The translations under genes and the position numbers were made by a program. Positions 3,814-62,811 of a stretch of 64,000 nucleotides of DNA are shown here, one piece after another. Each line of letters opens with the position of its first letter. Position 1 is the stretch's first letter. A model generated the notes under the pieces. That model ran no database searches, had not been told where the DNA came from, and saw nothing but the letters and a program-made list of their open reading frames with translations. The DNA is taken from the NCBI GenBank assembly GCA_017983615.1, contig JAGOBB010000006.1, forward strand, positions 1-64,000, in the 5' to 3' direction. The DNA is from Azonexus sp. GTDB taxonomy: Bacteria; Pseudomonadota; Gammaproteobacteria; Burkholderiales; Rhodocyclaceae.

Positions 3814-4442
3814 CCATGAAGTTCTACATGACGCCCGGCTCGTGTTCGACCGGCATCCACATCCTGCTCGAAGAATGCGGCCTGGTATTCGAGGCCCACA
3901 TCGTCAACCTGCTGGCCGGCGACCAGTACAAGAAGGATTACGCGGCGATCAACCCCAAGGGCACCATTCCGGCGCTGGTCCTTGACGACGGCACGGCGCT
4001 GACCGAGTTTTCCGCCATTGCCTGGTGGCTGGCTCGCAGCTACCCAAAACGCAAGCTGCTGCCGGAAAGCCTGGCCGACGAGGTGCAGGTGCTCAGCGTC
4101 ATGAATTACGCCGTGCATACGCTGCACACGCAAGGCTTCGCCCGAATCTTCACCACCGAGCGCTTTGCGCCGAGCAGCGCCGACCACGAATCGGTCAAGG
4201 CACAGGGCCGGCAGATCATCGACAAGGCCTTTGCCATCGTCAGTCGCCAGCTGACCGGGCGGCAATACGTTGTCGACCATTTCACCATCGCCGACGCGGC
4301 GCTGTTTTACGTCGAATTCTGGGCCGAGCGCATCGGCATCCCGCTACCGGAAAACTGCGCCGCCCACTATCGGCGCATGCTGACGCGGCCCACGGTGCGC
4401 CAGGTGCTGGCGGAAGAGGGGTACGCCTCGGTTCTACGCTGA
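3810..4442 (+). CDS. Glutathione S-transferase family protein
   Basis: A 210-residue cytosolic protein with the GST layout. The N-terminal thioredoxin-like domain has MTPGSCSTGIHILLEE; Cys12 sits where beta-class GSTs use a catalytic cysteine. The motifs NPKGTIPALVLDDG and LTEFSAIAWWLA bind glutathione, and the helical C-terminal domain has the FTIADAALFYV capping motif. GGAGG lies 9 bases before the start, which overlaps the preceding stop. The substrate is unknown. A copy of the dispersed repeat begins on the last base of the stop codon. Confidence 0.88.
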   Translation: MTMKFYMTPGSCSTGIHILLEECGLVFEAHIVNLLAGDQYKKDYAAINPKGTIPALVLDDGTALTEFSAIAWWLARSYPKRKLLPESLADEVQVLSVMNYAVHTLHTQGFARIFTTERFAPSSADHESVKAQGRQIIDKAFAIVSRQLTGRQYVVDHFTIADAALFYVEFWAERIGIPLPENCAAHYRRMLTRPTVRQVLAEEGYASVLR

Positions 4443-4486
4443 ATGCTACGGTCGGCCTGAAAAAAAGGCCAAAATCAAAATTCCGG
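4442..4486 (+). repeat. Dispersed repeat, short form (copy A)
   Basis: Core AATGCTACGGTCGGCC, then TG, seven A, GGCCAAAA and TCAAAATTCCGG. It begins on the last base of the GST stop codon, so it occupies the 3' untranslated region. One of about 13 short copies in the window. Confidence 0.85.
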
Positions 4487-4608
4487 TCTAATGGCCGAAA
4501 ACGCTGACTGGAAGCCGATTTCGGCCAATTGCCCAGTTTGTAGGCAGGGTGTCTAACTCCTTGTTGTCTTAGGTCTTATAGAGGACTGCCAACGGGCAAT
4601 GCACAGAC

Positions 4609-4617
4609 TTATCCACA
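4609..4617 (+). promoter_or_regulatory. Perfect DnaA-box sequence
   Basis: TTATCCACA matches the high-affinity DnaA box. It stands alone in the AT-rich part of a 290-base gap, followed by the symmetrical GGGGTTAACCC region. With no cluster of boxes and no dnaA or dnaN gene nearby it is not an origin. It may be a regulatory site or chance. Confidence 0.35.
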
Positions 4618-4735
4618 GAAACTGTGAATTAACCGGGGTTAACCCGTGACTGGCAGGTGGATCGAAACTTGCTGGATTCAATCTAAGCAGTGCGTTCTTC
4701 CTTGCATTTGTCGTTAACCAAACCGGAGGTGCATC

Positions 4736-4858
4736 ATGAACCATTCACAACAGCAGTTTTCCCGGCTTGCGACCGGCAACCGCCCATACGGCTCCGTGAT
4801 CCGGAACCTGGCGGCTTCCTCGATGCCCTCAGGAGAACCGCGATGCCCTCCCGCCTGA
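4736..4858 (+). CDS. Small ORF, 40 aa, upstream of and overlapping the next gene
   Basis: Begins MNHSQQQFSRLATGNRPYGS. GGAGG sits 8 bases before the ATG, a strong site for such a short frame. The last codons overlap the start of the gene at 4843 in another frame, a layout typical of leader peptides or coupled small genes. I recognise no family. The frame is Ser/Pro-rich near its end. Confidence 0.45.
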   Translation: MNHSQQQFSRLATGNRPYGSVIRNLAASSMPSGEPRCPPA

Positions 4859-5046
4859 ATGAAGAAATGATGTTCTGGATGCGCCTCGGCGCCTTTGCCT
4901 GTTTGTCGGAATACGTGCTGTCGACCGGCGCTTCGGTGGAAGACGCGGAGGAATTCCTGCTCGGCTGCCACAGCCTGCCGAGCAGCTTGCCTTCCCGCTA
5001 CGCCTGCCTGTCCGGCGGCGCGGCGAATACGACGGTTTACGGCTAG
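4843..5046 (+). CDS. Hypothetical protein, 67 aa
   Basis: Begins MPSRLNEEMMFWMRLGAFAC. AGGAG lies about 7 bases before the ATG, inside the preceding small frame, so translation may be coupled. The protein has a hydrophobic N-terminal half, an acidic EDAEEF segment and two cysteines. Not recognised. Confidence 0.55.
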   Translation: MPSRLNEEMMFWMRLGAFACLSEYVLSTGASVEDAEEFLLGCHSLPSSLPSRYACLSGGAANTTVYG

Positions 5047-5176
5047 GCGCCTGCACCGGATTCGACGCTTGCGCACTGCCGTGGTGCGGGTTGGAGATTC
5101 GGGAGACGCAGAACGGACTGCCGGATTTACGCCGGGGCATGGGTATGTCGCCGGGCCGGCGTCGGCTCATCCTGGC

Positions 5177-6874
5177 CTAAGCCACTGCCGGCGCGGAATT
5201 GACGGCGCTCAGGTTCAATTGCTTGTCGTGGTAGACCTCCAGCGTCGTTCGGTGGGCTACGCTGACCAGCGTGCAGTCAGGCAGGCGTTCGACCAGCAAC
5301 TGGTACATGCGGGCCTCGGTAGCGTTGTCCAGCGCGCTGGTGGCTTCGTCCAGGAAGAGGATGTCCGGCTTGTAAAGCAGGGCACGGGCGAAAGCCAGGC
5401 GCTGTTGTTCGCCGGGCGACAGGCGATGGCCCCAGCGTGCTTCTTCATGCAGACGGTTCGCGAACTGGGGCAGGCTGCAGTCGATCAGGATTTGGGTGCA
5501 GGTTGCGTCATCGACGGCATCGGCGGGCATCGGATAGGCCAGGGTCGCTTTCAGCGAGCCATCCGGGAGGTAGTTCTTTTGCGGGGTGAACATCACGCGC
5601 GCTTTGCGAGGCAGGCTGATGTGCCCTTTGCCAAAGGGCCAAAGACCGGCTATCGCGCGAAGCAGGGTGCTCTTGCCGGTTCCTGACGGGCCGCGCACCA
5701 GCCAGCGTTCGCCCGGGGCAAAGGCTACGCCATCCACCGCGGTCAGTGGCTTGCCGTCGGGCAGGGTCAGCAAGACGTTGGTGGCCTCGACGTCGGGCGA
5801 GGAGGATTTATTGCTGAATTCAATGCCGGTTGGGGGCGGCGCCGAGATGGCGGCATCCATGCCACTGAGGCGCTGGGTCACTGCTGAAAGCTGGAAAAGA
5901 TCGCCATAGGACCTCGCAAACCAGGCAATCGCTGCCGCCGTTTCGGTAAAAGCGGCGACATCCTGCATCAGCGTGCCGATGCCTAGTTCTCCTGAAAGCA
6001 CCTTGGGAGCGATCGCGATGATGGGAACCAGCAGCGATACGACGGCAAAGCCGCCGGATGCCATGTTCAGGAAGATGTGATAGCGCATGAGTTCCGACCA
6101 GTTGCGCCGGATTTCCGAGAACAGGTGGGCAAGACGTCCCTGCTCGACGCTCTCGCCGCGATAGAGAGCGATCTGCTCGGCAGCATCGCGTACCTTGGCA
6201 AGCGCAAAGCGGAAATCCGCTTCAACCTTGTGTTGTTCGACCGTTACACCGGAAAGCTTGTGACCGGCCAGATGAGTGACGATGGTCTGCAGGACGCCCC
6301 AGAAAATTGCCAGCCAGAACATGTATCCGGGGATGGTCAGCGAACTGTCGCCGATGTTGAAGGTCATGGGGCCGGCCGTGTGCCAGAGAATCCAGCCCAT
6401 GGTGCCAAGCGCCCCCAGGTTGGCGACGAAGCCGAGCGTCAGCTGGATCATCAGGTGGACGTATTCCGTCATGTCCTGCGTCAGGCGCTGATCGGGGTTG
6501 TCCAGGGTGTTGTCGCGTTCGATCCGGTAGTAAGTGCGATCCTTGAACCAGCGACCCATCATGCTGTCGGTCAGACTCCAGCGCCATTTCATTTCCAGCG
6601 CCTGCTCCATGTAGCTCTTCGTGACGGCGACGGCAACGATGAAGGCGATAGCCACGAAGAGCAATACAAGATTGGCGTTGAACGCCGCAGCATCGCGGTT
6701 TTGCAGCGCGTCGTAAAAACCCTTGGTCAACTGTGTATTCCAGGCCATCAGGCCGGTATTTGCCGCGACAAGGACAAGCAGTACAGCCAGCAGGAGCCAG
6801 GCAAGTCGGCGTGCTTCTGAATTTAGCCAGAATGGTTTTGCAAGGCGAATTATCTGTGCGGAGCGAGAGATCAT
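5177..6874 (-). CDS. ABC transporter, fused permease and ATPase (YddA/SbmA-BacA type)
   Basis: A 565-residue half-transporter. The N-terminal ~330 residues contain about six membrane segments of the SbmA/BacA-like fold, with the family's FYDALQNRD motif after helix 1 and the KDRTYYRIERDNTLDNPDQR motif. The C-terminal ATPase has Walker A GPSGTGKST, signature LSPGEQQRLAFARAL, Walker B ILFLDEATSALD and the H-loop VAHR. This arrangement matches E. coli YddA and related exporters; the substrate is unknown. It stands alone, divergent from the SH3 protein gene at 7010. Confidence 0.88.
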   Translation of the reverse strand: MISRSAQIIRLAKPFWLNSEARRLAWLLLAVLLVLVAANTGLMAWNTQLTKGFYDALQNRDAAAFNANLVLLFVAIAFIVAVAVTKSYMEQALEMKWRWSLTDSMMGRWFKDRTYYRIERDNTLDNPDQRLTQDMTEYVHLMIQLTLGFVANLGALGTMGWILWHTAGPMTFNIGDSSLTIPGYMFWLAIFWGVLQTIVTHLAGHKLSGVTVEQHKVEADFRFALAKVRDAAEQIALYRGESVEQGRLAHLFSEIRRNWSELMRYHIFLNMASGGFAVVSLLVPIIAIAPKVLSGELGIGTLMQDVAAFTETAAAIAWFARSYGDLFQLSAVTQRLSGMDAAISAPPPTGIEFSNKSSSPDVEATNVLLTLPDGKPLTAVDGVAFAPGERWLVRGPSGTGKSTLLRAIAGLWPFGKGHISLPRKARVMFTPQKNYLPDGSLKATLAYPMPADAVDDATCTQILIDCSLPQFANRLHEEARWGHRLSPGEQQRLAFARALLYKPDILFLDEATSALDNATEARMYQLLVERLPDCTLVSVAHRTTLEVYHDKQLNLSAVNSAPAVA

Positions 6875-7009
6875 GGTGAATCGCCGAATCAGGGGTTATC
6901 AGGGAGATTGCTACAAGGGCCATGGCGGCTTTCGGCTTCGCCATGGCCGGTATTGCCACGATACAATCCAGCCAAGTATGAACGAATTGTATTCACAGGG
7001 AATAATTTT

Positions 7010-10047: not shown

Positions 10048-10668
10048 TCAGGGGCAGTTCATCGGGATCGAAAGTACAGGCGTCGGGATGTCACGCGTCG
10101 CAGCTTCCGGCAGGCCTTGCAAACAGTAGCGGCGACCGTCGGCGGTGGTGACGCGGACTAGTTGACCGGCCAGCTGTTCGACGGTTTGCGCCCGGGCGGC
10201 GGTAGCGCGTTCGAGCGGCGTCACGGTCGCCGGTTGGCGGGCTGCGGCGGCGAACATTGGGTCGAGCATTTGCCGGCGGCTGTCGGCCTCGATATCCGCC
10301 TTGCCGCGTGCGATCATGGCTTGGGTGTCGGATCGGGAGGTAGTTGGCTCGGGTGGGCGGGGGCTGGCTTCCATCGGTCCAGCCGGTCGCTCGGCTAGCC
10401 CCTGCGATGGCCGGCCGGCAGCCAATTGCCGGGAATCTGGCAACGGGCCAGGTGCGTTCTCAGACACTTGGCTAGCCGATTTCAGCTGCACAGAAAGCGG
10501 CCGAATGCTACGGTCGCCCTCAAAAAATGGCCAAAACTGAAAATGCATGGACAGCACCAGCCCATGCGCGAGCAGGGAAACGCCAACAAAGCGGCGCAGA
10601 CGGCGGCCGCTGTCTGTCTTTTCAGCTGGCCAGCCGGGGCAGGCCGGGTTCAGCGACAGGGTCGGCAT
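10048..10668 (-). CDS. TonB-like membrane-anchored protein carrying a repeat-encoded segment
   Basis: A 206-residue protein with a cytoplasmic start, one membrane segment (RRFVGVSLLAHGLVLSMHF, about residues 25-43), a Pro/Ala/Arg-rich stretch and a short C-terminal domain ending in QLVRVTTADGRRYCLQGLPE. The N-terminal region resembles TonB-type proteins. The sequence just after the membrane segment, FWPFFEGDRSI, is encoded by a reverse-oriented copy of the dispersed repeat. It overlaps the wHTH gene by 47 bases and closes a four-gene operon. Confidence 0.6.
   Translation of the reverse strand: MPTLSLNPACPGWPAEKTDSGRRLRRFVGVSLLAHGLVLSMHFQFWPFFEGDRSIRPLSVQLKSASQVSENAPGPLPDSRQLAAGRPSQGLAERPAGPMEASPRPPEPTTSRSDTQAMIARGKADIEADSRRQMLDPMFAAAARQPATVTPLERATAARAQTVEQLAGQLVRVTTADGRRYCLQGLPEAATRDIPTPVLSIPMNCP
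10504..10543 (+). repeat. Dispersed repeat, short form (copy B), inside the TonB-like gene
   Basis: AATGCTACGGTCGCCC, TC, AAAAAATGGCCAAAA, CTGAAAA. It lies antisense within the coding region and is translated as FQFWPFFEGDRSI without a stop. Confidence 0.85.
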
Positions 10669-10954: not shown

Positions 10955-10956
10955 GG

Positions 10957-13073: not shown

Positions 13074-14444
13074 TCAGTCCGCTTGGTCGGCCGGCTTCCG
13101 GGCAATACCTTGGGCCAGCGGCAGGCTGGCGATGAACTGGCGGTAGCGCATTTCCGATTGTTCCAGGGCCAGCAGCGCGTTGCGTTGTTCGGTGATGTCC
13201 ATGACGACCATCCGGCATTCCTTGCCATCTTCGTCCGGGACAGCTTCGATCCTGACCGTCGATGCCGGGCGCAGCGCGGTGGGGGGCAGAGCAACCTCGC
13301 AGAATCGAGTTGTTTTCTCGTTCAGGACCTGTTCGACGAACTGCATGAAAGCAGCCTGACATTCCGTTGCCAGATAGGTGGCGAAGCGGTGCCGGCTTTT
13401 CTGTGAGCGTTTGAGTCCGAGCAGAATGGCGCCGGCCAGATTGAGTTCGAGTATGTTGCCTTGCGCGTCGAGTGTGAAGTAGCCAATGGGCGCGAAATCG
13501 TAGATGTCGGCATAGCGCATGCTCAGGGCATCGGCTTCGTCGTGCGCCTCGTTCAGTGCTTCATTGCTGATTTCCAGCTCGATCTTGCGGATCTCCAGTT
13601 CATGCTGCAGATAGGCCGCTTCCGTCGAGTCTTCCGGCGGGACTGTGGGCAACTCGCGCCAGCGGGCTTCGGCGCGATGGCGCAGGCTTGCCGGGTTGGC
13701 GCGAAATCGGGCGGGCGTGCCAAATGCTACGGTCGCCTGCAAAAAACGCTCATTTTCCATTTTTAGTGCGCCATAGCATTCGCAGCACCAGGCCTCCAGG
13801 CCCGGCCGGTCGAGGACGTCAATCCGCCCACGGCTGTAACGGATCAGACCTGCCGCCTGGAGCTTGCCGGCCGCGTCGGTAATCGCTTCGCGGCGGACGC
13901 CGAGCAGGCCGGCAATCCGTTCCTGCGTCATGCTGATCCGGTGGTCGGGCAGGCGGTCAAGACAGAGCAGCAGCCAGCGACTGAGTTGGTGCTCGACGGT
14001 GTGGAGGCGGGCGCAGACCAGTCCCCGGCCCATCTGTACCAGCACGGACTGTGCGTAGCGCAAGGCCAGCTGCTGCAGACGCCCGCCCTGGGCCAGTTCC
14101 CAGGCCATGGTTTCCGCCTTCAGGCGCCAGGCCTCGCCGGCATGCTGGACGATGATCTTGTGATCGGCCAGCTCGTCGCCCAGGACCAGCGAAATGCCGG
14201 CCAGTCCTTCGTGGCCGGTCATGGCGAGCTCGGTCGAGGCGCCGCTGCGGGTACTGGCGATCAGTGAAACGATGCTGTCCGTCGGGAAATACACGTCGGT
14301 GAGCTTCTCTCCGAGATCCTGGAGCACCTGGCCCGGTCGCAGCGAAACCAGCGCCATGTCCTCACGCAGCCGGGATTGTTCGCTTTGGCTCAGCCCGGCG
14401 AGCAGCCGATTGTGCAGCTGTCCGGACAGGGGTTGAGTAGGCAT
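13074..14444 (-). CDS. Crp/FNR-type regulator fused to a PAS domain
   Basis: A 456-residue protein. Residues about 15-130 form a cyclic-nucleotide-binding-like domain (VSLRPGQVLQDLGEKLTDVYFPTDSIVSL). Residues about 140-225 form a winged helix with the recognition part ITDAAGKLQAAGLIRYSRGRIDVLDR preceded by MTQERIAGLLGVRREA. A linker and coiled coil (LQHELEIRKIELEISNEAL) lead to a PAS domain from about 320 (YDFAPIGYFTLDAQGNILEL). It probably senses a signal and regulates transcription; no cofactor Cys cluster of FNR type is evident. The linker FLQATVAFGTP is encoded by a repeat copy. Confidence 0.8.
   Translation of the reverse strand: MPTQPLSGQLHNRLLAGLSQSEQSRLREDMALVSLRPGQVLQDLGEKLTDVYFPTDSIVSLIASTRSGASTELAMTGHEGLAGISLVLGDELADHKIIVQHAGEAWRLKAETMAWELAQGGRLQQLALRYAQSVLVQMGRGLVCARLHTVEHQLSRWLLLCLDRLPDHRISMTQERIAGLLGVRREAITDAAGKLQAAGLIRYSRGRIDVLDRPGLEAWCCECYGALKMENERFLQATVAFGTPARFRANPASLRHRAEARWRELPTVPPEDSTEAAYLQHELEIRKIELEISNEALNEAHDEADALSMRYADIYDFAPIGYFTLDAQGNILELNLAGAILLGLKRSQKSRHRFATYLATECQAAFMQFVEQVLNEKTTRFCEVALPPTALRPASTVRIEAVPDEDGKECRMVVMDITEQRNALLALEQSEMRYRQFIASLPLAQGIARKPADQAD
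13722..13765 (+). repeat. Dispersed repeat, short form (copy C), inside the Crp-PAS gene
   Basis: AAATGCTACGGTCGCCT, GC, AAAAAACG, then a more degenerate tail. Antisense to the gene, it encodes ERFLQATVAF in the linker between HTH and PAS parts. Confidence 0.8.
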
Positions 14445-15811: not shown

Positions 15812-15850
15812 AAATGCTACGGTCGGCCGGAAAAAAAGCCATATTTCCGG
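15812..15850 (+). repeat. Dispersed repeat, short form (copy D)
   Basis: AAATGCTACGGTCGGCC, GG, seven A, GCCATATTTCCGG. It starts about 20 bases after the stop of the small membrane protein gene. Confidence 0.85.
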
Positions 15851-15971
15851 ATTGAGCGTGGCAATTGTGGCGTTGTTGGGGGGCCAGCGATTGGATTCGC
15901 GCCAAAGCCCGGCACCACCCCGGCCTCAGGTATAATGCCGGCCTCTCCGCCTAACCCGAAATCACTCTCCA

Positions 15972-21852: not shown

Positions 21853-21883
21853 AAATGGCGCGGTTTCGTTCCGCGCCATTTTT
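21853..21883 (+). terminator. Terminator after the TIR gene
   Basis: AAATGGCGCGG and CCGCGCCATTT form an 11-bp stem around TTTCGTT, with a T-run. It begins about 20 bases after the stop. Confidence 0.85.
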
Positions 21884-21940
21884 GCCTTTTAAGGAGGCCG
21901 ACCCTGGGGCCAGCCGTTGTTTCCATGGTCGTAGCATTTG
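21880..21940 (-). repeat. Dispersed repeat, long form (copy N)
   Basis: Read on the minus strand: AAATGCTACGACC, ATGGAAACAACGG, CTGGCCCCAG, GGTCGGCC, TCCTTAAAAGGCAAAAA. It contains the 27-base extra block relative to the short form, forming a CGACC/GGTCG outer stem and CTGG/CCAG inner stem. It lies between the convergent TIR and CZB genes and overlaps the terminator tail. Confidence 0.8.
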
Positions 21941-22975: not shown

Positions 22976-23019
22976 AATGCTACGGTCGGCCGCAAAAAAA
23001 GCCAAAAAGCGAAAACCGG
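22976..23019 (+). repeat. Dispersed repeat, short form (copy E)
   Basis: AATGCTACGGTCGGCC, GC, seven A, GCCAAAAAGCGAAAACCGG. It lies in the divergent space between the macrodomain and rhodanese genes, the only copy seen upstream of both neighbours. Confidence 0.85.
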
Positions 23020-28201: not shown

Positions 28202-28239
28202 AAAAACGCCGACCGGTTTTATCCGGGTCGGCGTTTTTT
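28202..28239. terminator. Second, bidirectional hairpin between ppiD and fabI
   Basis: AAAAACGCCGACC and GGTCGGCGTTTTTT form a long stem around GGTTTTATCCG. With A and T runs on its two sides it can end transcription of both convergent genes. Confidence 0.85.
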
Positions 28240-28276
28240 GATTTTTGCCCTTTTTTCAGGGCGACCGTAGCATTTG
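28240..28276 (-). repeat. Dispersed repeat, short form (copy F)
   Basis: On the minus strand: AAATGCTACGGTCGCCC, TG, AAAAAAGGGCAAAAA. It lies 13 bases after the fabI stop, next to the bidirectional terminator. Confidence 0.85.
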
Positions 28277-34032: not shown

Positions 34033-34638
34033 ATGAAACTCACGCCACGGCAGCAGGAAATTCTCGACTTCATCAAGAGCACGCTGGAAGTGCTCGGCGC
34101 GCCGCCAACCCGGGCAGAAATCGCCAGTGCCTTCGGCTTCGCTTCGCCCAATGCGGCCGAAGATCACCTCAAGGCCCTGGCCAAAAAGGGCGCCATCGTG
34201 CTCGAACCCGGCTCGGCACGCGGCATCCGGCTGGTCGAGCAGCTCGGCCTGCCGCTGATCGGTAGCGTCGCCGCCGGTTCGCCGATTCTTGCCGTCGAAA
34301 ACGTGCAGGGGCGCTATGCGCTCGACGCCAGCCTGTTCTCGCCGAAAGCCGATTTCCTGCTCAAGGTGCGCGGCCTGTCGATGATCGACGCCGGCATCTT
34401 CGACGGCGACCTGCTCGCTGTGCACAAGACCACGCAGGTTCGCGACGGCCAGATCGTCGTCGCCCGGCTTGACGAGGAAGTCACCGTCAAGCGCCTGGAG
34501 CGCAGCGGCGGTCAGATCCGCCTGATCGCCGAGAACCCCGATTTCGAGCCGATCATCGTCAATCCGGAAGAGGTCGAGTTCGCCATCGAAGGCATCGCCG
34601 TCGGCCTGATCCGCGGAGCTGTTTCGAAACTCTCATGA
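34033..34638 (+). CDS. lexA: LexA, SOS repressor
   Basis: A 201-residue repressor. Winged-helix DNA-binding domain at 1-65 ([20 protein letters not shown]), then the autoprotease. Cleavage is expected at Ala81-Gly82 in GSVAAGSP; the dyad is Ser116 (GLSMIDAG) and Lys153 (EVTVKRL). First gene of the SOS mutasome operon, overlapping imuA by 4 bases. Whether this is the only LexA in the genome cannot be told here; similar cassettes often carry a second one. Confidence 0.95.
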
Positions 34639-35360
34639 ACGTCATGCCGTCGCCGATCCCTTTGGCCGACGTGCTGGCCCGGGGCGATGTCTGGCGCGGC
34701 GACACGCTGGCTTCGCTGCAGGACAGCGCCATCCCGAGCGGCCATGCCGAACTCGATGCCGAACTGCCGGGCGGCGGCTGGCCGCGCGGCAACCTGACCG
34801 AAATCCTCGTCGACCGTAGCGGGGTCGGCGAAATGAGCCTGCTGCTGCCGGCGCTGGCTCGACTGTCGGCCGCTGGCGGCTGGCTGGCGCTGGTGGCGCC
34901 GCCTTGGTTGCCACATGCACCGGCCTGGGCGGCGGCGGGGGTGGCGCTGGAGCGGTTGGTCGTTGTCCGTGCCGGCAAGCAGGTTGGCTGGTGCGTCGAA
35001 CAGTTGCTGGCCTGCGGCGGTTTTGCCGGCGTGCTGGCCTGGCCGGAAGCCGGCATCGATGCGCGGGCCTTGCGTCGGCTGCAGGTGGCGGCGGAAGGGC
35101 GACCGGTTTTTGCCTGTTTGTGGCGGCCGACCGTAGCATTTCGGGCGCCGTCGCCAGCGCCGCTGCGTCTTGCGCTGGCCGCCGGTGACAACGATCTGTC
35201 GGTGCGTATCGTCAAGCGGCGCGGCCGCCCGGTTTCCGGGCCGCTGGCCTTGTCCGTTCCCCGTCCTCTTGCCTTTGCCGGGAGAAACCCGCGTGCTGTG
35301 GCTGGCCCTGCATTTTCCGCTGTTGCCGATCGAGGCCTTGCCGCTGCGCCAGCCGCCTAG
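34635..35360 (+). CDS. imuA: ImuA, SulA/RecA-like component of the SOS mutasome
   Basis: A 241-residue protein that, with ImuB and DnaE2, performs damage-induced translesion synthesis. It shows [20 protein letters not shown] and [20 protein letters not shown], similar to the RecA-like region of the family, and the C-terminal [11 protein letters not shown]. The repeat copy G encodes [11 protein letters not shown] within it. Overlaps lexA by 4 bases and imuB by 68. Confidence 0.9.
35107..35141 (-). repeat. Dispersed repeat, short form (copy G), inside imuA
   Basis: Minus strand: AAATGCTACGGTCGGCC, then a diverged spacer, CAGGCAAAAA. The sense strand of imuA reads it as WRPTVAF. Confidence 0.75.
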
Positions 35361-36759
35361 CGCCGTCGTCGCTCGCGGGCGGGTGCAGGTGGCCGACGAG
35401 GCGGCGGTGGCAGCCGGGGTTTGCTCCGGGCAAAAGCTGTCGACGGCGCTTGGCTTGCAGCCCGGGCTGGCTGTTTTCGAGCGCGATGCCGGGCGTGAAC
35501 GGCAGGCGCTGGAGAGCCTGGCCTGCTGGGTAGGGCGCTTTACGCCGACGATCAGCCTGCAGCCGCCGGACACGCTACTGCTCGAAATCGGCGGCTGCCT
35601 GCGCCTGTTCGGTGGCGCGGAGGCGATTATCGCGGCGGTGCTCGCCGGTTGTGCCGAGCAGTCCTATTCGGTGCGCTGGGCAGCGGCGCCGACGCCGCTC
35701 GGTGCCCGCTGGCTGGCGCGCGCCGGCGGCAGCATCAAGGTCGACACGGCCGGCTTGCCGGCGGTGTTGGCCCCTTTGCCCTGCCGCGTGCCCGGCTGGC
35801 CGGGCGAGGTGACGAACCGTCTGGAATCCTTTGGCCTGAAACGCCTTGGCGAGCTCTACCAAATGCCTGGCGCCGGCCTGCGGCGACGCATCGGCAATGG
35901 GCCGGTCGACGATCTGCTGCGCGCCTGGGGCGATTTGCCCGATCCACAACAGGCCTTCGTCTTCCCGGAAAGCTTCGCGGTTTCCATTGAATTGCCAGCA
36001 CGCGTCGAACATGCCGAGGCCCTGGTCTTCGCCGGCCAGCGCCTGTTCGCGGCGCTGGCCGGCTGGCTGCATGGCCGGCAGTTGCTGGTTCGCCGCTGCA
36101 CCCTGCAGCTAAGTCACGACGACGGCCCGCCGACGGCGCTGGCCCTCAATTTCGCCGAACCGGCGGCCGACGAGGGGCGTTTCATCCGCCTGCTGCGCGA
36201 GCATCTCGGCCGGCTGCAACTCTCGGCGCCGGTCGAAGCGCTGCGCCTGCAGGCCGACGAACTGGTCGACAAGCCCGGCGAGAGCGCCCATCTTTTTGAC
36301 CAGGCAGTGGCCGGCGAGGGCGCGCTGGCCTGCCTGGAACGCCTGCGCGCCCGGCTCGGCGAACAGGCGGTGCAGGCGCTGACGCTGGTTGCCGATCATC
36401 GGCCGGAATGTGCTACGCACGAACACGATGCCGTTTCCGGTTTTGGCCAAAATTTCGGGGCGACCGTAGCATTCGAGGAACAAGCCGGTCAGGCGGCCGT
36501 GCCGTGCCGGCACCGTCCGTTGTGGCTGCTGCCGGTGCCGCAGGCGCTGGCCGAGCAGGGCGGCAGCCCGCAATGGCACGGGCCGCTCAAGCTGCTGTCG
36601 CGGGCCGAGCGTCTGGAAAGTGGCTGGTGGGACGAAGGCGAAGACAGGGCGACCGGTGATGTCCGTCGCGACTATTTCGTCGCCCGCAACCCGCAGGGCC
36701 AGCGGGCCTGGGTTTTCAGGAACGCCGAAGGCTGGTTTCTGCACGGCCTGTTCGCCTGA
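35293..36759 (+). CDS. imuB: ImuB, Y-family-polymerase-like protein of the mutasome
   Basis: A 488-residue protein starting at a GTG ([16 protein letters not shown], with GGAG upstream). It has the Y-family fold without a complete catalytic set, consistent with ImuB's role as the hub linking the sliding clamp, ImuA and DnaE2. Features: palm-like LLLEIGGCLRLFGG, fingers/HhH LKRLGELYQMPGAGLRRRI, little-finger region about 230-350. The repeat copy H encodes SGFGQNFGATVAF near the end (about residues 382-394). It overlaps imuA by 68 bases. Confidence 0.92.
   Translation: MLWLALHFPLLPIEALPLRQPPSAVVARGRVQVADEAAVAAGVCSGQKLSTALGLQPGLAVFERDAGRERQALESLACWVGRFTPTISLQPPDTLLLEIGGCLRLFGGAEAIIAAVLAGCAEQSYSVRWAAAPTPLGARWLARAGGSIKVDTAGLPAVLAPLPCRVPGWPGEVTNRLESFGLKRLGELYQMPGAGLRRRIGNGPVDDLLRAWGDLPDPQQAFVFPESFAVSIELPARVEHAEALVFAGQRLFAALAGWLHGRQLLVRRCTLQLSHDDGPPTALALNFAEPAADEGRFIRLLREHLGRLQLSAPVEALRLQADELVDKPGESAHLFDQAVAGEGALACLERLRARLGEQAVQALTLVADHRPECATHEHDAVSGFGQNFGATVAFEEQAGQAAVPCRHRPLWLLPVPQALAEQGGSPQWHGPLKLLSRAERLESGWWDEGEDRATGDVRRDYFVARNPQGQRAWVFRNAEGWFLHGLFA
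36434..36473 (-). repeat. Dispersed repeat, short form (copy H), inside imuB
   Basis: Minus strand: AATGCTACGGTCGCCC, CG, AAATTTTGGCCAAAA, CCGGAAA. Its TTTTGGCCAAAA part is a perfect palindrome. Translated in imuB as GFGQNFGATVAF. Confidence 0.85.
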
Positions 36760-36777: not shown

Positions 36778-39700
36778 ATGTCGCTGCCCGACTACGCCGA
36801 GTTGCACTGCCTGTCCAATTTCAGTTTCCTACGCGGCGCCTCGCACCCGGAGGAACTGGTCGGGCGGGCCGTTGCCCAGGGCTATGGTGCGCTGGCACTG
36901 ACCGACGAGTGTTCGCTGGCCGGCGTCGTGCGGGCGCATCGGGCGGCGAAGGATGCCGGGCTGGATTTCATCGTCGGCAGCGAAATCACGACCGCGGATG
37001 GCCTGAAACTGGTTTTTCTGGCCTGCAACCGGCACGGCTACGGCAACCTCTCGGCGCTGATCACGCTCGCCCGGCGGCGCGCGGAAAAGGGCACCTACAC
37101 CTTGCAGCGCAACGATCTGGAGGCGGTATCGCCGAGCGGCGCGGTGCCTGATTGCCTGGTGCTCTGGGTGCCGGGTGATTCGCCGGCGACCATAGAATCA
37201 ACGGCTGGCCCTAGGGTCGAGGACGGCCGCTGGCTGGCCGAGCGTTTTCCCGGCCGTTGCTGGATCGCCGTCGAGCTGCACGCAGGGCCGGACGACGCGG
37301 CGAAGCTGGCCGGCCTGCAGGCGCTTGGTGTCGCCTGTGGCCTGCCGCTGGTTGCCGCCGGCGACGTTCATATGCACGTCAAGGCGCGGCGGCCGGTGCA
37401 GGACGTGCTGACTGCGCTACGCCTTAAACGCACGGTGTTCGATGCTGGTTACGCGCTGTTCCCGAACGGCGAGCGCCACCTGCGTTCGCGGCTTCGGCTG
37501 TCGCGGCTGTACCCGCCGGAACTGCTGGCCGAGACGCTGAACATCGCCGCCCGCTGCGCGTTTTCGCTCGACGAACTGCGCTACGAATACCCGGAGGAGA
37601 TCGTCCCGGCCGGCGAAACCCCTGCCTCCTGGCTGCGGGCCGAAACCGAGCGCGGCCTGGCGCGGCGTTACCCGGCCGGCGTTCCCGATAGCGTCCGCGA
37701 GCGTGTCGAACACGAACTCAGGCTGATCGCCGAGATGGCCTACGAAGCCTATTTCCTGACCGTCTACGACATCGTCTGCTTCGCCCGCGGTCAGGAAATC
37801 CTGTGTCAGGGGCGTGGCTCGGCGGCCAATTCGGCGGTTTGCTACGCGCTCGGCGTCACCGAAGTCGATCCGGCGCGTTCGGCCCTGCTGTTCGAACGCT
37901 TCATTTCGAAGGAGCGCGGCGAGCCGCCGGATATCGACGTCGATTTCGAGCACGAGCGGCGCGAGGAAGTCATTCAGTACATTTACCGGAAATACGGCCG
38001 CGAGCGGGCGGCGCTGGCCGCGGCGCTGATCACCTACCGGACCAAGGGCGCGTTGCGCGACGCTGGCCGGGCGCTCGGTTTCGGCATCGCCCAGATCAAC
38101 GCGCTGACCGCCTCGCTGGCCTGGTGGGACCGGCGCGATCAACTGCCGGAACGCTTCGCCGAACTCGGCCTCGACCCGCAGGCGCCGCGCGTCGAGAAGT
38201 GGCTGGCCATCGCCGAGGCACTGCGCGGCTTTCCGCGTCATCTGACGCAGCACGTCGGCGGCTTCGTCATCTCGCGCGGGCCGCTGTCGCGGCTGGTGCC
38301 GGTCGAAAATGCCGCGATGGCCGAGCGCAGCGTGATCCAGTGGGACAAGGACGATCTCGACGCGATGGGCCTGATGAAGGTCGACATCCTGGCGCTGGGC
38401 ATGCTGACGGCGATCCGCCGGATGCTTTCGATTTTGGCCAAAATTTCCGGCCGACCGTGGCATTTGCAGGATATCCCGGCTGAAGACCCGGCGACCTACG
38501 AAATGCTCTGCCACGCCGACAGCATGGGCGTCTTCCAGGTCGAGTCGCGGGCCCAGATGGCCATGCTGCCGCGCCTCAAGCCGCGCAATTTCTACGATCT
38601 GGTCGTCGAAGTCGCCTTGGTCCGCCCGGGGCCGATCCAGGGTGACATGGTCCATCCCTACCTGAAGCGGCGGCAGGGCAGGGAGCGCATCGAGTCAATT
38701 TCGCCGGCCGTCGACAAGGTGCTGGCGCGCACCTTTGGCGTGCCGATCTTCCAGGAACAGGTCATGCAACTGGCCGTCGTCGCCGCCAATTTCACACCCG
38801 GCGAGGCCGACCAGTTGCGCCGGGCGATGGCGGCCTGGAAGCGCAAGGGTGGCCTGGAACCCTTCGAGCATAAGCTGCGCGCCGGCATGGCCGCCAACGG
38901 CCTGCCGCCTGCATTTGCCGAGCGCATCATCATGCAGATCCAGGGCTTCGGCGAATACGGCTTCCCCGAGTCGCACGCCGCCAGCTTCGCGCTGCTCGTC
39001 TATGCCTCGGCCTGGCTCAAGCGCCACCACCCGGCCGCCTTCCTGTGCGGTCTGCTCAACAGCCAGCCGATGGGCTTCTACTCGCCGTCGATGCTGATCC
39101 AGGACGCCCGCCGTCACGGTGTGGTCGTGCTGCCACCGGATGTCACGGCCAGCGACTGGGACAGCCGTCTCGACGAAACCGGCGCCGTCCGCCTCGGCCT
39201 GCGCGAGATAGTCGGCCTGCCACAGTCGGCCGCCGAGCGGATTGCTACGGTCCGCCAAAAAAACGGGCCATTTTCAAATGTCGCCGATCTGGCATCACGC
39301 GCCGGCCTGCAACGTCGCGACCTCGACCTGCTGGCCGCGGCCGATGCCCTGCAAAGCTTGGCTGGTCATCGCCGCCAGGCCGCCTGGGCCGCCAGCGTGG
39401 AAAAGGCGGCCGCAGTCGTGCAGGGCGACCTGTTCGATGGCCTGCCGCTTGCTGAACCGGCAGCGCCGCTGCCGGCGCCGAACGAGGGCGAAAACCTGGT
39501 TGCCGACTACCGCAGCCTCGGCCTGACCCTGCGCGCCCACCCGCTGACGCTGCTGCGCCACCATCTCGCCGGGCGCCGCTTCCTGACCGCCGCCGCGCTG
39601 AAAGCCGCCGGACACCGTGCCCTGGTCCGCGCCGCCGGCATCGTTGTCGGGCGCCAGCGGCCGGGCACGGCGACCGGCATCGTCTTCGTCACGCTGGAAG

Positions 39701-39900
39701 ACGAAAGCGGGCTGACCAACGTCGTTGTTCATCCGCAACTCGTTGAAAGGCAACGTCGCGAACTGCTTGGCGCGACGCTGCTCGGTGTCTTCGGGCAACT
39801 GCAGATCGAAGGAGAGGTCGTCCACCTGGTCGCCAAGCGCCTGGTCGATCTTTCCGCCTGGCTCGGCCAGCTGGAGACCTCGAGCCGCGACTTTCATTGA
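36778..39900 (+). CDS. dnaE2: DnaE2, error-prone DNA polymerase III alpha homologue
   Basis: A 1040-residue polymerase of the C family that does SOS mutagenesis. Domains in order: PHP (LHCLSNFSFLRGASHPEEL onward), polymerase palm with PPDIDVDFEHERREEV, fingers (RRAMAAWKRKGGLEPF), HhH (GFGEYGFPESHAASFALL) and a C-terminal OB fold (RAAGIVVGRQRPGTATGIVF). It lacks the exonuclease. Three stretches (37187-37219, 38426-38466, possibly 39241-39280) match the dispersed repeat but keep the frame open. AGGA precedes the ATG; 18 bases after imuB. Confidence 0.95.
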   Translation: MSLPDYAELHCLSNFSFLRGASHPEELVGRAVAQGYGALALTDECSLAGVVRAHRAAKDAGLDFIVGSEITTADGLKLVFLACNRHGYGNLSALITLARRRAEKGTYTLQRNDLEAVSPSGAVPDCLVLWVPGDSPATIESTAGPRVEDGRWLAERFPGRCWIAVELHAGPDDAAKLAGLQALGVACGLPLVAAGDVHMHVKARRPVQDVLTALRLKRTVFDAGYALFPNGERHLRSRLRLSRLYPPELLAETLNIAARCAFSLDELRYEYPEEIVPAGETPASWLRAETERGLARRYPAGVPDSVRERVEHELRLIAEMAYEAYFLTVYDIVCFARGQEILCQGRGSAANSAVCYALGVTEVDPARSALLFERFISKERGEPPDIDVDFEHERREEVIQYIYRKYGRERAALAAALITYRTKGALRDAGRALGFGIAQINALTASLAWWDRRDQLPERFAELGLDPQAPRVEKWLAIAEALRGFPRHLTQHVGGFVISRGPLSRLVPVENAAMAERSVIQWDKDDLDAMGLMKVDILALGMLTAIRRMLSILAKISGRPWHLQDIPAEDPATYEMLCHADSMGVFQVESRAQMAMLPRLKPRNFYDLVVEVALVRPGPIQGDMVHPYLKRRQGRERIESISPAVDKVLARTFGVPIFQEQVMQLAVVAANFTPGEADQLRRAMAAWKRKGGLEPFEHKLRAGMAANGLPPAFAERIIMQIQGFGEYGFPESHAASFALLVYASAWLKRHHPAAFLCGLLNSQPMGFYSPSMLIQDARRHGVVVLPPDVTASDWDSRLDETGAVRLGLREIVGLPQSAAERIATVRQKNGPFSNVADLASRAGLQRRDLDLLAAADALQSLAGHRRQAAWAASVEKAAAVVQGDLFDGLPLAEPAAPLPAPNEGENLVADYRSLGLTLRAHPLTLLRHHLAGRRFLTAAALKAAGHRALVRAAGIVVGRQRPGTATGIVFVTLEDESGLTNVVVHPQLVERQRRELLGATLLGVFGQLQIEGEVVHLVAKRLVDLSAWLGQLETSSRDFH
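37187..37219 (+). repeat. Long-form repeat core (copy P), inside dnaE2
   Basis: CGACCATAGAATCAACGG, CTGGCCCTAG, GGTCG. It has the hairpin block of the long form without the AAATGCTA flank, and agrees with copy O in about 30 of 33 positions. It encodes ATIESTAGPRV at about residues 137-147. Confidence 0.8.
38426..38466 (-). repeat. Dispersed repeat, short form (copy I), inside dnaE2
   Basis: Minus strand: CAAATGCCACGGTCGGCC, GG, AAATTTTGGCCAAAA. Bases 38432-38466 match copy M (61022-61056) at 34 of 35 positions. The one difference changes a TAG stop to TGG in the dnaE2 frame (GRPWHL). Confidence 0.85.
39241..39280 (+). repeat. Degenerate repeat copy (J), inside dnaE2, uncertain
   Basis: ATTGCTACGGTCCGCC, AAAAAAACGGGCCATTTTCAAAT. 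Two substitutions from the core. It reads IATVRQKNGPFSN, close to what the DnaE2 family has anyway, so chance similarity is possible. Confidence 0.4.

Positions 39901-50960: not shown

Positions 50961-50964
<4 letters not shown>
49894..50964 (-). CDS. DAHP synthase (3-deoxy-7-phosphoheptulonate synthase, AroF/G/H type)
   Basis: First step of the shikimate pathway. A 356-residue enzyme of the type I class. Motifs: LFVVVGPCSIHDP, FEKPRTTVGWKGYINDP, VDCSHANSSKKPE. Which feedback inhibitor it responds to cannot be assigned by eye. Its ATG overlaps the mfd stop (ATGA). Confidence 0.93.
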
Positions 50965-54404
<3,440 letters not shown>

Positions 54405-55927: not shown

Positions 55928-55953
55928 GCTTTTGCGAAAGCGAAAAAAACTTT

Positions 55954-57215: not shown

Positions 57216-58085
57216 ATGCCCATGACCGACTACGAGCGCATTGCCAAGGCTATCGCCTTTATCGCCCTTCGGGTCGACCGCCAGCCGACGCTGGAGGAAG
57301 TCGCGGCGCACCTGCATTTGAGCCCCTTCCATTTCCAGCGCCTGTTCAGTCGCTGGGCGGGCGTGACGCCGAAACGTTTCCTGCAGGTGCTGACGGTGGC
57401 GCGTGCCAAGCGCCTGCTCGGCGAGGCCCGGCCGCTGCTGGAAGTGGCCGACGGCCTCGGCCTGAGCAGCGCGTCGCGCCTTTACGACCATTTTGTCCAG
57501 CTTGAGGCGGTGACGCCGGGGGAGTTCAAGACGCGCGGTGCCGGGCTGGTCATCCGGTTTGCCGTGCAGGAGACGCCTTTCGGCCCGGCCTTCATTGCGA
57601 TGACGCCGCGGGGCATCTGCCATTTTGCCTTTGTCGATGGTGGCGGGATCGACGTGGAACTTGCCGCGCTGCGGGCGCAGTGGCCGCTGGCCGAGCTGTG
57701 CGAGGACGGCCGGCCATCGCAGGCGGTCATCGATGCGATGTTCGGTGCATCGGACCGTCGGGAGCTTCGGCTGCCGATTTCGCTGCATGTGTCCGGCACC
57801 AACTTCCAGATCAGCGTCTGGAAGGCGCTGCTGAACATCGCGCCGGCGACGGTGGCGAGCTATGCCCAGGTGGCCGAGGCAATCGGCCGCCCCAAGGCAG
57901 CGCGCGCCGTCGGACAGGCGGTTGGCGCCAATCCTGTTGCCTTGCTGATCCCGTGTCACCGGGTGATCCAGCAAAGCGGTGCATTGGGCGGTTACCACTG
58001 GGTCACTAGTCGCAAGCAGGCGATACAGGCGTGGGAGTTGGTGCGCGATTCGGTGCGCCACGATGAATGCTACGGTCGGCCGTAA
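57216..58085 (+). CDS. Ada-like methyltransferase with AraC HTH (methylated-DNA repair)
   Basis: A 289-residue protein: AraC-type HTH at about 1-95 (VAAHLHLSPFHFQRLFSRWA), a linker domain, then the Ogt/AGT domain with the acceptor Cys in IPCHRVI and the preceding ATVASYAQVAEAIG. It removes O6-alkyl groups and may activate its own genes; the N-terminal Zn-Cys domain of E. coli Ada is absent. The last seven residues (DECYGRP) and the stop come from a repeat copy. Confidence 0.85.
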   Translation: MPMTDYERIAKAIAFIALRVDRQPTLEEVAAHLHLSPFHFQRLFSRWAGVTPKRFLQVLTVARAKRLLGEARPLLEVADGLGLSSASRLYDHFVQLEAVTPGEFKTRGAGLVIRFAVQETPFGPAFIAMTPRGICHFAFVDGGGIDVELAALRAQWPLAELCEDGRPSQAVIDAMFGASDRRELRLPISLHVSGTNFQISVWKALLNIAPATVASYAQVAEAIGRPKAARAVGQAVGANPVALLIPCHRVIQQSGALGGYHWVTSRKQAIQAWELVRDSVRHDECYGRP

Positions 58086-58103
58086 AAAACGGCAAAAACC
58101 AAA
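58066..58103 (+). repeat. Dispersed repeat, short form (copy L), ends the Ada-like gene
   Basis: AATGCTACGGTCGGCC, GT, AAAAAACGGCAAAAA, CCAAAC. It provides ECYGRP and the TAA stop of the Ada-like protein. Confidence 0.85.
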
Positions 58104-58109
58104 CCGATT

Positions 58110-59363: not shown

Positions 59364-59515
59364 GTTGGGCTCCTTCCCGGATTGCATATCGGGTTCGAAC
59401 CTTGATATTCCAATTGGTTCACGTCAGGATGAGGTTTGAATAAAAATTGCCCGGTGCGAGCTCTGCGTCGGCGAGGCAAGCGCTTCGATACCAATCATTC
59501 GCACAAGGAACAACC

Positions 59516-59911: not shown

Positions 59912-59932
59912 TCGTGGCAGTGGGCCATTTCC

Positions 59933-60505: not shown

Positions 60506-60536
60506 ATATGAATGCGACTTCGCAGGGTACAGCCCG

Positions 60537-60995
60537 GTGATCATCGAACGCATTTATATCTGCCCGGTGCACGGTGGCGTACAGGTCGAGTGCGAGCAAG
60601 TGGCGCTCGAGGCGGGCAGGGGGATTGTCGGCGACAGGAGTTTCGGGAAGAACGCCTATCCCGGGCAGAGCGTTACGCTGGTCGAGGCCGAGGAGATCGA
60701 GCGCTTCTGCGTCGAGCAGGGGCGGCCGGTCGATCTGGCCATGACGCGGCGCAATCTGGTGACCCGGGGTGTTCGGTTGAACGCTCTGATGGGGAAAGAA
60801 TTCAGCGTGGGGACGGCAAAGCTTAAAGGCGTCGATCTCTGCGAGCCTTGCTCGGCACTGGGTGATCGGCTGGCCGATACCGCGCTGGCCCCGGCCGACG
60901 TGGTCCGGCGCTGGGTGGGGCGCGCTGGCTTGTTGGCAGAGGTGCTGGCGTCGGGCGTCATCGAGCCAGGTGCCCGGATCGAAGCAGGCGATTAG
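60537..60995 (+). CDS. MOSC-domain protein
   Basis: A 152-residue single MOSC domain (GIVGDRSFGKNAYPGQSVTL, TRRNLVTRGVRLNALMG, LCEPCSALG) with the conserved Cys of sulfur carrier use in molybdenum-cofactor proteins. Starts at a GTG; AGGG upstream. Role in Moco sulfur transfer is inference. Confidence 0.85.
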   Translation: MIIERIYICPVHGGVQVECEQVALEAGRGIVGDRSFGKNAYPGQSVTLVEAEEIERFCVEQGRPVDLAMTRRNLVTRGVRLNALMGKEFSVGTAKLKGVDLCEPCSALGDRLADTALAPADVVRRWVGRAGLLAEVLASGVIEPGARIEAGD

Positions 60996-61021
60996 TCGCC
61001 TGCCGGAACGCGTAAGTAGCC

Positions 61022-61066
61022 CAAATGCTACGGTCGGCCGGAAATTTTGGCCAAAACCGTCATTCA
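61022..61066 (+). repeat. Dispersed repeat, short form (copy M)
   Basis: CAAATGCTACGGTCGGCC, GG, AAATTTTGGCCAAAA, CCGTCATT. It lies 27 bases after the MOSC stop, and is nearly identical to copy I inside dnaE2. Confidence 0.88.
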
Positions 61067-61214
61067 CTTTTCTTCCAAATGACGCCATGATATGCCTGTG
61101 AAATATATCAATACGCTGATGGGCGACGAATATTTCATGTTCTGTTCGTACGGCACGGTGGATGGCGGTACGTGGTGAGCCACCGTTGAACGCAATCTTC
61201 GATGGGGAGGCAAC

Positions 61215-62714
61215 ATGGCAATTTTGCAATGGCGTAACGACGCCGATGGCTTTGCTTTTATCAATTCCTGGGAATTCGATTCAACCGAACGGGCGGCGTT
61301 GACCGCACTGGTTCAGCCGCTGGTTCCTGGCGTCGTGGCGACGGTGGCCGGCGTGGTGCCCGATCCACTGATCCTGACGGCGGTTGCCGTGGCGGCCAGC
61401 GGTTACGCGGCCGTCGGCAAGCTGGATACCTATGGTTTGTGTGGCGGTATGGCATACGCCGCGCTGGACCACTGGCATGCGAGAGTGCCACTGCCGCGCG
61501 GCGCCCACCGGAACGACCAGCCGCAGCGCACGGCGCCCGCGCCGGCGGCGATCCGTGCATCGCTCTGGGAGCGGCTGCTCGACAGCCTGACGCACGGCGA
61601 CGTTCTGCGCCGGACAATCGAGTGGTCGATCTTCCTCAATCAGGTGCCGACGTGGTTCGGCGGTGGCGCGGAGGGGTTGAAGGCGCGGACGATACCGGAA
61701 TGGGATACGGTGCGCCGTCATATCGACGCCGGCCGGCCGTGGCCGATTGGGCTGATTTACACCAACCGCAGTGTCTGGTCGCAGCACCAGGTGCTGGTTT
61801 ATGGCTACGAGAATACCGGCGTGAGCCAGGGCAAACTGTATGTCTATGACAGCAACGCGCCTTCGCAATTTGCCGACGAGAGTCACAGCGAGATCACCCT
61901 GGATTTCCGGGGCACGACACTGGTGGCCACCTCGCCTTCTGACACCGCGGGCGTGGACAGTCTGGCCGGATTTTTTTGCAGCAACTATTCGCCGGCCACG
62001 CCACTCGGTCGGGCCAAGGAATACGGCGAATTCTTGGCCTGGGTGCGTGACCGGCGGACATTCATGGTCACCGATGGCGCGCGTATGCAGGTGGCGGGCG
62101 CCGGCGAGTTCTCGGCGCTGGGCGGCGTTACCGCCAATGTTCGGTCTACCGCGGTGACGCTGTTGGCACACCATACCCGGCCGCGCGATGGCGCCTGTTT
62201 CCGCGAGCGCAGTTCGGCACCGGTTTACCTGTTTGCCGGCGGCATGCCGTTCTGGATTCCCGATCAGGTCTGGATGCAGCGCTTCGGCGGCTTTGGGCAG
62301 GTGCGCATCGTGCCGGACGGGGCGATTGCGGCTTTCCAGAAAGTGCCCGACGAGGGAACGCTGCTTCGCGAATGGTCCAGTCCCAAGGTCTGGCGCATGA
62401 TGAACGGGTTCCGGCGGTGGGTGACAACGCCTGCTGAACTGGCCAAGTGGGGAGGCATGCCGTCCGTGCGGGTTGTCCCGGATGATGGCTTGAAACCCAT
62501 CCCGGTCGGGCAACCGCTGCCGACGCCATCCGCCAATGAGTGCGCCGCGCTGCGGGCAACCATTGCGCGTCTGAATTCGGACATCCCGCGGCTGGAAGCC
62601 TCCCTGGAGAACCTCGAAGGGCGCGCACTGGCTGGGGCCAAGGTCCGTTTGCAGAATGCGCGGGTGGCGAGGTCTACGGCCCTGGCACGAGCGGCGGCGC
62701 TGCAGTGCCCGTGA
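61215..62714 (+). CDS. Unknown protein with papain-like residues, 499 aa
   Basis: A large soluble protein of unrecognised family. A Cys in TYGLCGGMAYAALDHW (about 76), a His in SQHQVLVYGYE (about 197), and Asp in LYVYDSNAP (about 213) occur in the order of papain-like cysteine peptidases and C39-like domains. A region with VYLFAGGMPFWIPDQVWMQR then FGGFGQVRIVPDG follows, and the last ~60 residues form a coiled coil. GGGGAGG precedes the ATG. Cytoplasmic, as no signal peptide is seen. The catalytic assignment is inference. Confidence 0.6.
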   Translation: MAILQWRNDADGFAFINSWEFDSTERAALTALVQPLVPGVVATVAGVVPDPLILTAVAVAASGYAAVGKLDTYGLCGGMAYAALDHWHARVPLPRGAHRNDQPQRTAPAPAAIRASLWERLLDSLTHGDVLRRTIEWSIFLNQVPTWFGGGAEGLKARTIPEWDTVRRHIDAGRPWPIGLIYTNRSVWSQHQVLVYGYENTGVSQGKLYVYDSNAPSQFADESHSEITLDFRGTTLVATSPSDTAGVDSLAGFFCSNYSPATPLGRAKEYGEFLAWVRDRRTFMVTDGARMQVAGAGEFSALGGVTANVRSTAVTLLAHHTRPRDGACFRERSSAPVYLFAGGMPFWIPDQVWMQRFGGFGQVRIVPDGAIAAFQKVPDEGTLLREWSSPKVWRMMNGFRRWVTTPAELAKWGGMPSVRVVPDDGLKPIPVGQPLPTPSANECAALRATIARLNSDIPRLEASLENLEGRALAGAKVRLQNARVARSTALARAAALQCP

Positions 62715-62743
62715 TTTGATGCGCTCACGGCTACTCGGCGTGC

Positions 62744-62811
62744 AAATGCGACGACCATAGAATCAACGGCTGGCCCCAGTGTCGGCCGGAAAATCGGGTC
62801 AAAAATGAAAA
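62744..62811 (+). repeat. Dispersed repeat, long form (copy O)
   Basis: AAATGCGACGACC, ATAGAATCAACGG, CTGGCCCCAG, TGTCGGCC, GG, AAAATCGGGTCAAAAATGAAAA. It shares the hairpin block with copies N and P and the flanks with the short form. It runs into the terminator at 62809. Confidence 0.82.

Follow-up and report, generated by a model that had tools for sequence, protein, structure and literature searches.

Introduction

Two described systems come closest to the repeat analyzed here: the uptake signal sequence (USS) of the Pasteurellaceae and the DNA uptake sequence (DUS) of the Neisseriaceae. The Pasteurellaceae USS is presented in PMC12616744 and PMC7811141 as a discontinuous motif in which two AT-rich regions come after a strict core, and the copy numbers quoted in PMC7811141 are 1,465 for USS and 1,892 for DUS. 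Here, we analyze a dispersed repeat found in a 64,000-nucleotide stretch of Azonexus sp. DNA (positions 1 to 64,000 of contig JAGOBB010000006.1, assembly GCA_017983615.1), hereafter the window. The repeat exists as a short element of ~39 bp, S, built on a strict 13-bp core (AATGCTACGGTCG), and as a long form, L. We consider it probable, from the combined sequence analyses given below, that the repeat is an uptake signal sequence working like that of the Pasteurellaceae, outside that family.

Like the Pasteurellaceae USS, as portrayed in those sources, S has a strict core and two downstream AT-rich tracts at helical spacing, is of similar length, is present in many copies and forms dialects by subclade. 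The cores themselves differ, being AAGTGCGGT or ACAAGCGGT in USS and AATGCTACGGTCG or TGCTRCGGTCRACC in S; the dialect of one relative, G043, contains GCGGTC, much as Apl-USS (ACAAGCGGT) has a GCGG inner core. S is also unlike USS in that GC blocks frame its tracts, its copies are fewer and its host belongs to the Rhodocyclaceae. With the DUS, as outlined in PMC3630211 and PMC2397512, S shares permissive locations as well as dialects, which are a few bases apart and track the species phylogeny. However, the DUS is described in passages of PMC3630211 and PMC12616744 as contiguous, with up to ~13 bases around CTG, whereas S joins a longer core to A/T tracts and is not a contiguous 10–13-mer of the DUS type. 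Among the matches listed from the openly licensed literature, we found no earlier report of the repeat.

Abundance of the repeat

In what follows, G000 is the assembly that holds the window (2,921,885 bases, i.e., 2.92 Mb, in 34 contigs, 85.66% complete), and other G numbers are the genomes of relatives. The 12-mer used for counting, ATGCTACGGTCG, occurs 391 times in G000, 195 times on the forward and 196 on the reverse strand, against 0 for the reversed control. A preliminary description of the window had proposed a genome-wide count, and the core is indeed over-represented rather than near random expectation. Within the window, 11 copies carry the exact 12-mer, the copy at 38463(-) has one mismatch and that at 39242(+) has two; allowing up to two mismatches yields 25 matches where 4.84 are expected, a number reached by none of 100 shuffles (0/100). 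For the 13-mer core, 464 kb of G000 contain 69 perfect, 18 one-mismatch and 18 two-mismatch copies (reversed control: 0, 0, and 15), and a k-mer count over the same 464 kb found GACCGTAGCATT 81 times against 0.1 expected. S is thus present in hundreds of copies far above chance, as an uptake signal should be. The positions first reported for the copies are correct within a few bases; the density of one per 4 kb reported with them is reached when degenerate and long forms are included, but falls to ~1 per 7.5 kb for the exact core.

Architecture of the short element

The anatomy of S was derived from the 69 copies in 464 kb of G000. Downstream of the core come five bases that are mostly G or C and a first tract of six A/T bases; a GC block separates this tract from a second one of four to five A/T bases, after which three variable bases lead to a third, weaker A/T run. 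On the upstream side, the only preferences are for a purine at the base before AATGC and, weakly, for G/C another two to three bases out. The two W (A or T) tracts occupy positions 17–22 and 28–32, so that their centres lie ~10 bp, or about one helical turn, apart. A/T content is 94–99% at positions 18–22, 93–100% at 28–31 and 3–19% in the GC block at 24–26. Where the tract consensus is A, T is found in 10–36% of copies. As T freely replaces A within the tracts, what is conserved there is base composition and so, probably, the shape of the groove, as would be expected if the shape of the DNA is recognised.

Distribution and dialects among relatives

A pattern shared by the dialects, TGCTRCGGTCRRCC, was counted in 76 Azonexus/Dechloromonas genomes. 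At least 20 copies are present in 35 of them, hereafter called rich, leaving 41 others; 37 of the 76 have 10 or fewer. Outside the genus, none of 285 genomes belonging to 67 other genera of the family has more than 6 copies. At least one match to the full pattern is present in Dechloromonas denitrificans ATCC BAA-841 (locus L303). The local form of the motif varies: AATGCTACGGTCGGCC in G000 and G029, TGCTGCGGTCAACCGG in G043, TGCTACGGTCRACCGG in G052, and GCTGCGGTCGAC followed by A/T tracts in G034. Over-represented k-mers include TGCTGCGGTCAACCGGAAAAA in G043 and TGCTACGGTCRACCGGAAA in G052, and 60 kb of G034 contain TGCGGTCGAC eight times against 0.7 expected, mostly with A/T tracts after it. 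The local dialect is also held at orthologous positions, for instance at site L050:6358 compared with G052 (gap-free) and at L052:6001 compared with G043 (one gap column).

In a tree of Mfd from 30 genomes, G000 and G029, which use one dialect, are sisters with moderate support (90/94). The rich and poor states require at least six changes on this tree, while shuffles average 9.7–9.8 and are as low in only 3–4 of 500. The dialects thus follow phylogeny, with few genomes sampled deeply.

No such motif was found among the top k-mers of G048 (213 kb) or G005 (79 kb). In the motif-poor G048, two of three loose core matches have A/T tracts, as relics would. We rejected ATGCGGTCG as a hidden dialect of G048 (18 seen against 3.9 expected in 213 kb), as it lacks A/T tracts and looks like codon usage. 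G048 (L145–L149, L393, L398–L402) also holds an abundant REP-like (repetitive extragenic palindromic) repeat, CGTCATTCCCGCG...GCGGGAATCCAGA, and has the motif only at background level.

Genomic location, spacing and orientation

Coding status was assigned to the 69 sampled copies with a simple in-house open reading frame (ORF) caller, by which 88.5% of the sampled sequence is coding. Copies in genes number 25, of which 13 run with the gene and 12 against it, in agreement with the initial remark that several copies lie within reading frames. The other 44 are intergenic and enriched between convergent genes (16/44, p = 0.002). S therefore occurs in both orientations, within and between genes, as would an uptake signal. 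Neighbouring copies are at least 1,327 bp apart in 65 spacings (coefficient of variation 0.65, Kolmogorov–Smirnov p = 0.02). A later sample includes one pair 496 bp apart on contig C6; the sequence that holds it is duplicated exactly in inverted orientation, which might stem from misassembly.

Many of the genes hosting a copy have housekeeping roles. Pfam matches identify among the host products a gyrase A/topoisomerase IV-type protein, SMC, DHFR, RibD, an M50 protease, a SpoU methylase, a Mur ligase, a PD-(D/E)XK-domain protein, Mfd, a DnaE2-like polymerase and an ImuB-like protein. Further hosts are a sensor kinase, a Crp/PAS protein, a radical SAM protein and DabA, and one scanned host gave no match. 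Contig C11 of G000, considered as a case of mobile DNA depleted of the motif, has two copies in 51.8 kb, and the 20 kb of it that were read contain mostly housekeeping-type genes. A possible defence gene on the same contig (L365:772-6306(-)) codes for a large protein in which DUF4011, AAA and MTES_1575 nuclease domains are combined. A phage origin of the motif was rejected, as two patterns matched only two and one stretches, respectively, in viral contigs.

Three options had been offered at the outset: a REP or MITE-like (miniature inverted-repeat transposable) element, an uptake-type sequence, and a site for a chromosome-organising protein. The second is favoured here and the first is unsupported; the last is kept as a rival, although we regard it as unlikely. 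It holds that the core and phased tracts load a chromosome-organising or nucleoid-associated protein and that selection spreads the copies, which accords with the phasing of the A/T tracts, the mostly intergenic placement and a spacing somewhat more even than random. However, in the stretches tested, with copies omitted where skew lies within 0.02 of zero, orientation shows no bias relative to GC skew in G000 (38 vs. 29, p = 0.33) or G052 (15 vs. 17) and is weakly related to it in G043 (12 vs. 4, p = 0.08), the comparison of orientation with replication having been suggested in the preliminary description. Moreover, the motif is at background in about half of the species of one genus, which is odd for a housekeeping function, as well as in the 67 other genera, and its dialects change fast.

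Probable change in place at orthologous sites

We compared 101 sites with those of relatives, scoring the element over 41 columns and counting an ortholog as lacking the core at 9 or fewer of 13 matches. A spanning ortholog was available at 24 sites, and a gap-free one at 18 of these. Four sites of G000 (L043:1700, L051:17523, L367:1847 and L369:3588) have flanks resembling each other, so their matches may be paralogs; without them, the proportion is 14/20. No spanning alignment at the 24 sites has 25 or more of its 41 element columns in gaps, and a two-piece search for empty sites returned a single pair, whose pieces lie 1,052 bp apart in the relative, hence no empty site. The mfd site is gap-free in G029, G005, G048, G018 and G034; among its 34 aligned rows, in which some genomes appear twice, 16 are gap-free and the worst has 24/41 gap columns. 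Similarly, the site in the putative imuA is gap-free in four of five relatives aligned. The ortholog alignments speak for copies that arise by change in place, and S does not appear to be spread by transposition, with small gaps at many sites.

The alignments bear directly on whether S could be a tiny mobile element of the MITE or REP kind, copied by a transposase in trans. Such an element would fit a high copy number in few species and a defined ~39-bp unit, and S resembles REP elements in being dispersed and often placed just 3' of stop codons. We nonetheless judge this very unlikely, because no element-sized gap or empty site was seen among the orthologs compared, because the tracts exchange A for T yet stay W, and because differing dialects occupy the same orthologous places, gap-free in several cases. 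S also has no strong internal hairpin, judged by eye only.

At the four sites with similar flanks, these flanks are 77–90% alike, and the left and right sides (~240 bp) match in reverse, as if the motif centred a larger inverted repeat.

The long form

The long form is defined by a 33-bp motif, CGACCAYRGAAACAACGGCTGGCCCYAGGGTCR, found with up to three mismatches in 14 of 60 genomes (30 copies in G043, eight in G000 and nine in G029). Its ends, CGACCATAG and CTAGGGTCG, are near-copies of the core that face each other. In most copies with inspected flanks, the motif continues into an S-type right half (RACCGG, tracts), and most of the copies in G000 and G029 have AATGCTA in front. Two of the three long forms first listed in the window, at 21938 and 62745, indeed consist of the 33-bp motif with AATGC(T/G)A in front; that at 37187 has neither the AATGCTA left half nor the A/T tracts. 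At window position 21938, the long form of G000 corresponds to a short form in G029, with a net length difference of ~20 bp. A 27-bp piece of L sits in frame in the DnaE2-like gene of G000 and G034, and the gene lacks it in G029, G048, G005 and G052.

Facing arms are also a feature of the DUS dyads of Simonsiella and Kingella, which PMC3630211 describes as overlapping symmetric pairs of uptake motifs. In L, by contrast, the arms are slightly different from the short core, and a conserved 15-bp loop lies between them; the likeness is one of arrangement.

As a side observation, the L motif reads TIETTAGPRV in one frame (window 37187–37219, 21899–21931, and 62752–62784; L165–L184).

Competence machinery and candidate receptor

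Competence machinery is present in G000: ComEC matches over 62–663 of 663 positions in an 867-aa frame, and a ComEA-like protein and PilQ are encoded. A ComP_DUS-family pilin (E = 5.9e-9) is encoded next to a GspH-family pilin where contig C23 ends. Eight pilins were compared: in G000, G052, G071 and G043, the pilin lies 5' of a fimT-like gene and ends in a C-W...C pattern, and those found in G030, G032, G039 and G062 lack this pattern. As G030 and G032 are rich yet pattern-less, it does not sort genomes.

Taken together, architecture, abundance, strand symmetry, absence of insertion, dialects and machinery fit a USS-like uptake signal outside both known families. In natural transformation, the core would be the place where double-stranded DNA is bound by a surface receptor (probably a minor type IV pilin), and the A/T tracts, which follow at one and two helical turns, would assist the binding. 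As the pilus retracts, the DNA would be drawn in by way of PilQ, and one strand would be brought inside by ComEA and ComEC for recombination. DNA with a good copy by chance would be taken up more often, so copies would build up at permissive places and spread through the population; a shift in receptor preference would move the whole set of copies to a new dialect. Receptor binding, preferential uptake and molecular drive are the steps that we infer here.

With somewhat less assurance, we lean towards a broader proposal, namely that a third system of self-recognition in DNA uptake arose in Azonexus/Dechloromonas, independently of those in the Neisseriaceae and Pasteurellaceae. It would use a split core-plus-tract motif with at least three dialects in one genus, and L would be an older or alternative recognition state. 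The CGGTC core and phased A/T tracts would converge on the Haemophilus design, a convergence which suggests that pilus-type receptors favour such a DNA shape.

Several observations weigh against an uptake function. Having a ComP_DUS-family pilin does not by itself discriminate, as such pilins are found in rich genomes and also in the poor G039 and G062, and the Pfam model of this family may cover many PilE-like pilins. We found no gene that tracks copy number: GspH-family pilins are present in 69/76 genomes, and matches over the cut-off in 68/76 for ComEC and 67/76 for TIGR00426, none of which explains it. The rich, closed genome G043 has no ComEA match over the cut-off, and comEC is split in the sister G029. 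Interruption of comEC as the cause of motif loss was considered and rejected, with splits, sorted by hand from a listing of profile matches, in 5/35 rich genomes and 8/41 others (p = 0.76). The elements that interrupt comEC in the rich genomes G064 and G071 are free of the motif, yet only ~2.7 copies would be expected in them. The genomes with 1,465 USS and 1,892 DUS are near 2 Mb in size, and the density of S is below that of either. Lastly, an ortholog lacks the core at 14 sites and is gap-free in 4/14 (4/10 without the sites in repeated context); the remaining core-less orthologs have small gaps, with single rows reaching 18–24 of 41 columns. Gaps and unrelated sequence opposite the motif are likewise described for DUS in PMC2397512.

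Some of these observations would suit a relic, that is, a disused uptake or other recognition system in slow decay, in which interrupted comEC in several genomes including G029, the missing ComEA match in G043, and tracts at loose matches in G048 would all find a place. However, the core is sharp in G000 (69 perfect vs. 18 one-mismatch 13-mers in 464 kb) and the ComEC of this genome lies in a long open frame, which makes decay a very improbable account. A polar signal for recombination or DNA translocation like Chi or FtsK-orienting polar sequences (KOPS) would share with S a dispersed oligomer without sign of transposition, but signals of that type are far shorter than S, and the A/T tracts and the unbiased orientation in G000 and G052 reduce its probability to almost nothing.

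Splits of comEC were recorded in G071, G060, G064, G005, G044, G002, G018, G057, G036 and G029 (L378–L390), with the pieces ~2 to 64 kb apart. The inserts inspected encode an integrase-core protein with TniB and TniQ (G071), TniB (G005) and a serine recombinase (G044).

If an uptake signal is what the repeat represents, it would add a third case, in environmental bacteria, beside Haemophilus and Neisseria, and self-recognition of DNA would be seen to evolve repeatedly. The independent dialects and motif-less species would then allow the receptor to be found by comparison. The genus has been studied for denitrification and for perchlorate or aromatic metabolism, and the motif would offer a handle for genetics in Azonexus/Dechloromonas.

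Copies in the window and neighbouring features

Table 1. Short (S) and long (L) copies of the repeat in the 64-kb window.
Feature	Coordinates	Strand	Context
S, exact core	4442..4480	+	immediately 3' of stop codon
S, exact core	10504..10542	+	intergenic
S, exact core	13723..13761	+	within gene 13074-14444(-) with Crp-type helix-turn-helix and PAS domains
S, exact core	15813..15851	+	intergenic
S, exact core	22976..23014	+	intergenic, divergent genes either side
S, exact core	28236..28274	-	convergent genes either side; ortholog in G029 is a degenerate copy, gap-free
S, exact core	35102..35140	-	within ORF 34635-35360(+), putative ImuA; gap-free in G029, G034, G005, G048
S, exact core	36435..36473	-	within impB/mucB/samB-family gene 35170-36759(+), ImuB-like
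S, one mismatch	38426..38464	-	within DnaE2-like gene 36778-39900(+)
S, degenerate, two mismatches in 12-mer	39241..39279	+	within DnaE2-like gene
S, exact core	53360..53398	-	within mfd 50961-54404(-)
S, exact core	58066..58104	+	junction of convergent genes
S, exact core	61024..61062	+	intergenic
Long form L: AATGCTA + 33-bp dyad motif (21899-21931) + right half	21873..21939	-	G029 has S copy at locus
Long form L: AATGCGA + 33-bp motif (62752-62784) + right half	62745..62811	+	
33-bp L motif alone	37187..37219	+	in frame, DnaE2-like gene; 27-bp piece missing from G029, G048, G005, G052

The putative ImuA is named from its position only, as it has no Pfam match. Window positions 61025–62745 contain an ORF of ~496 aa, also with no Pfam match, flanked by a short and a long copy of the motif; at the corresponding locus of G029, alignments suggest a single motif and no ORF. 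The motif-free interval at 40–49 kb was considered as a prophage and rejected, since profile matches there, one of them NifU-like, give no support; the order of its genes resembles that of an isc operon. In the DnaE2-like gene of G029 and G034, 27 extra bases lie exactly inside the place of the 38463 copy, and their sequence is unlike the L motif.

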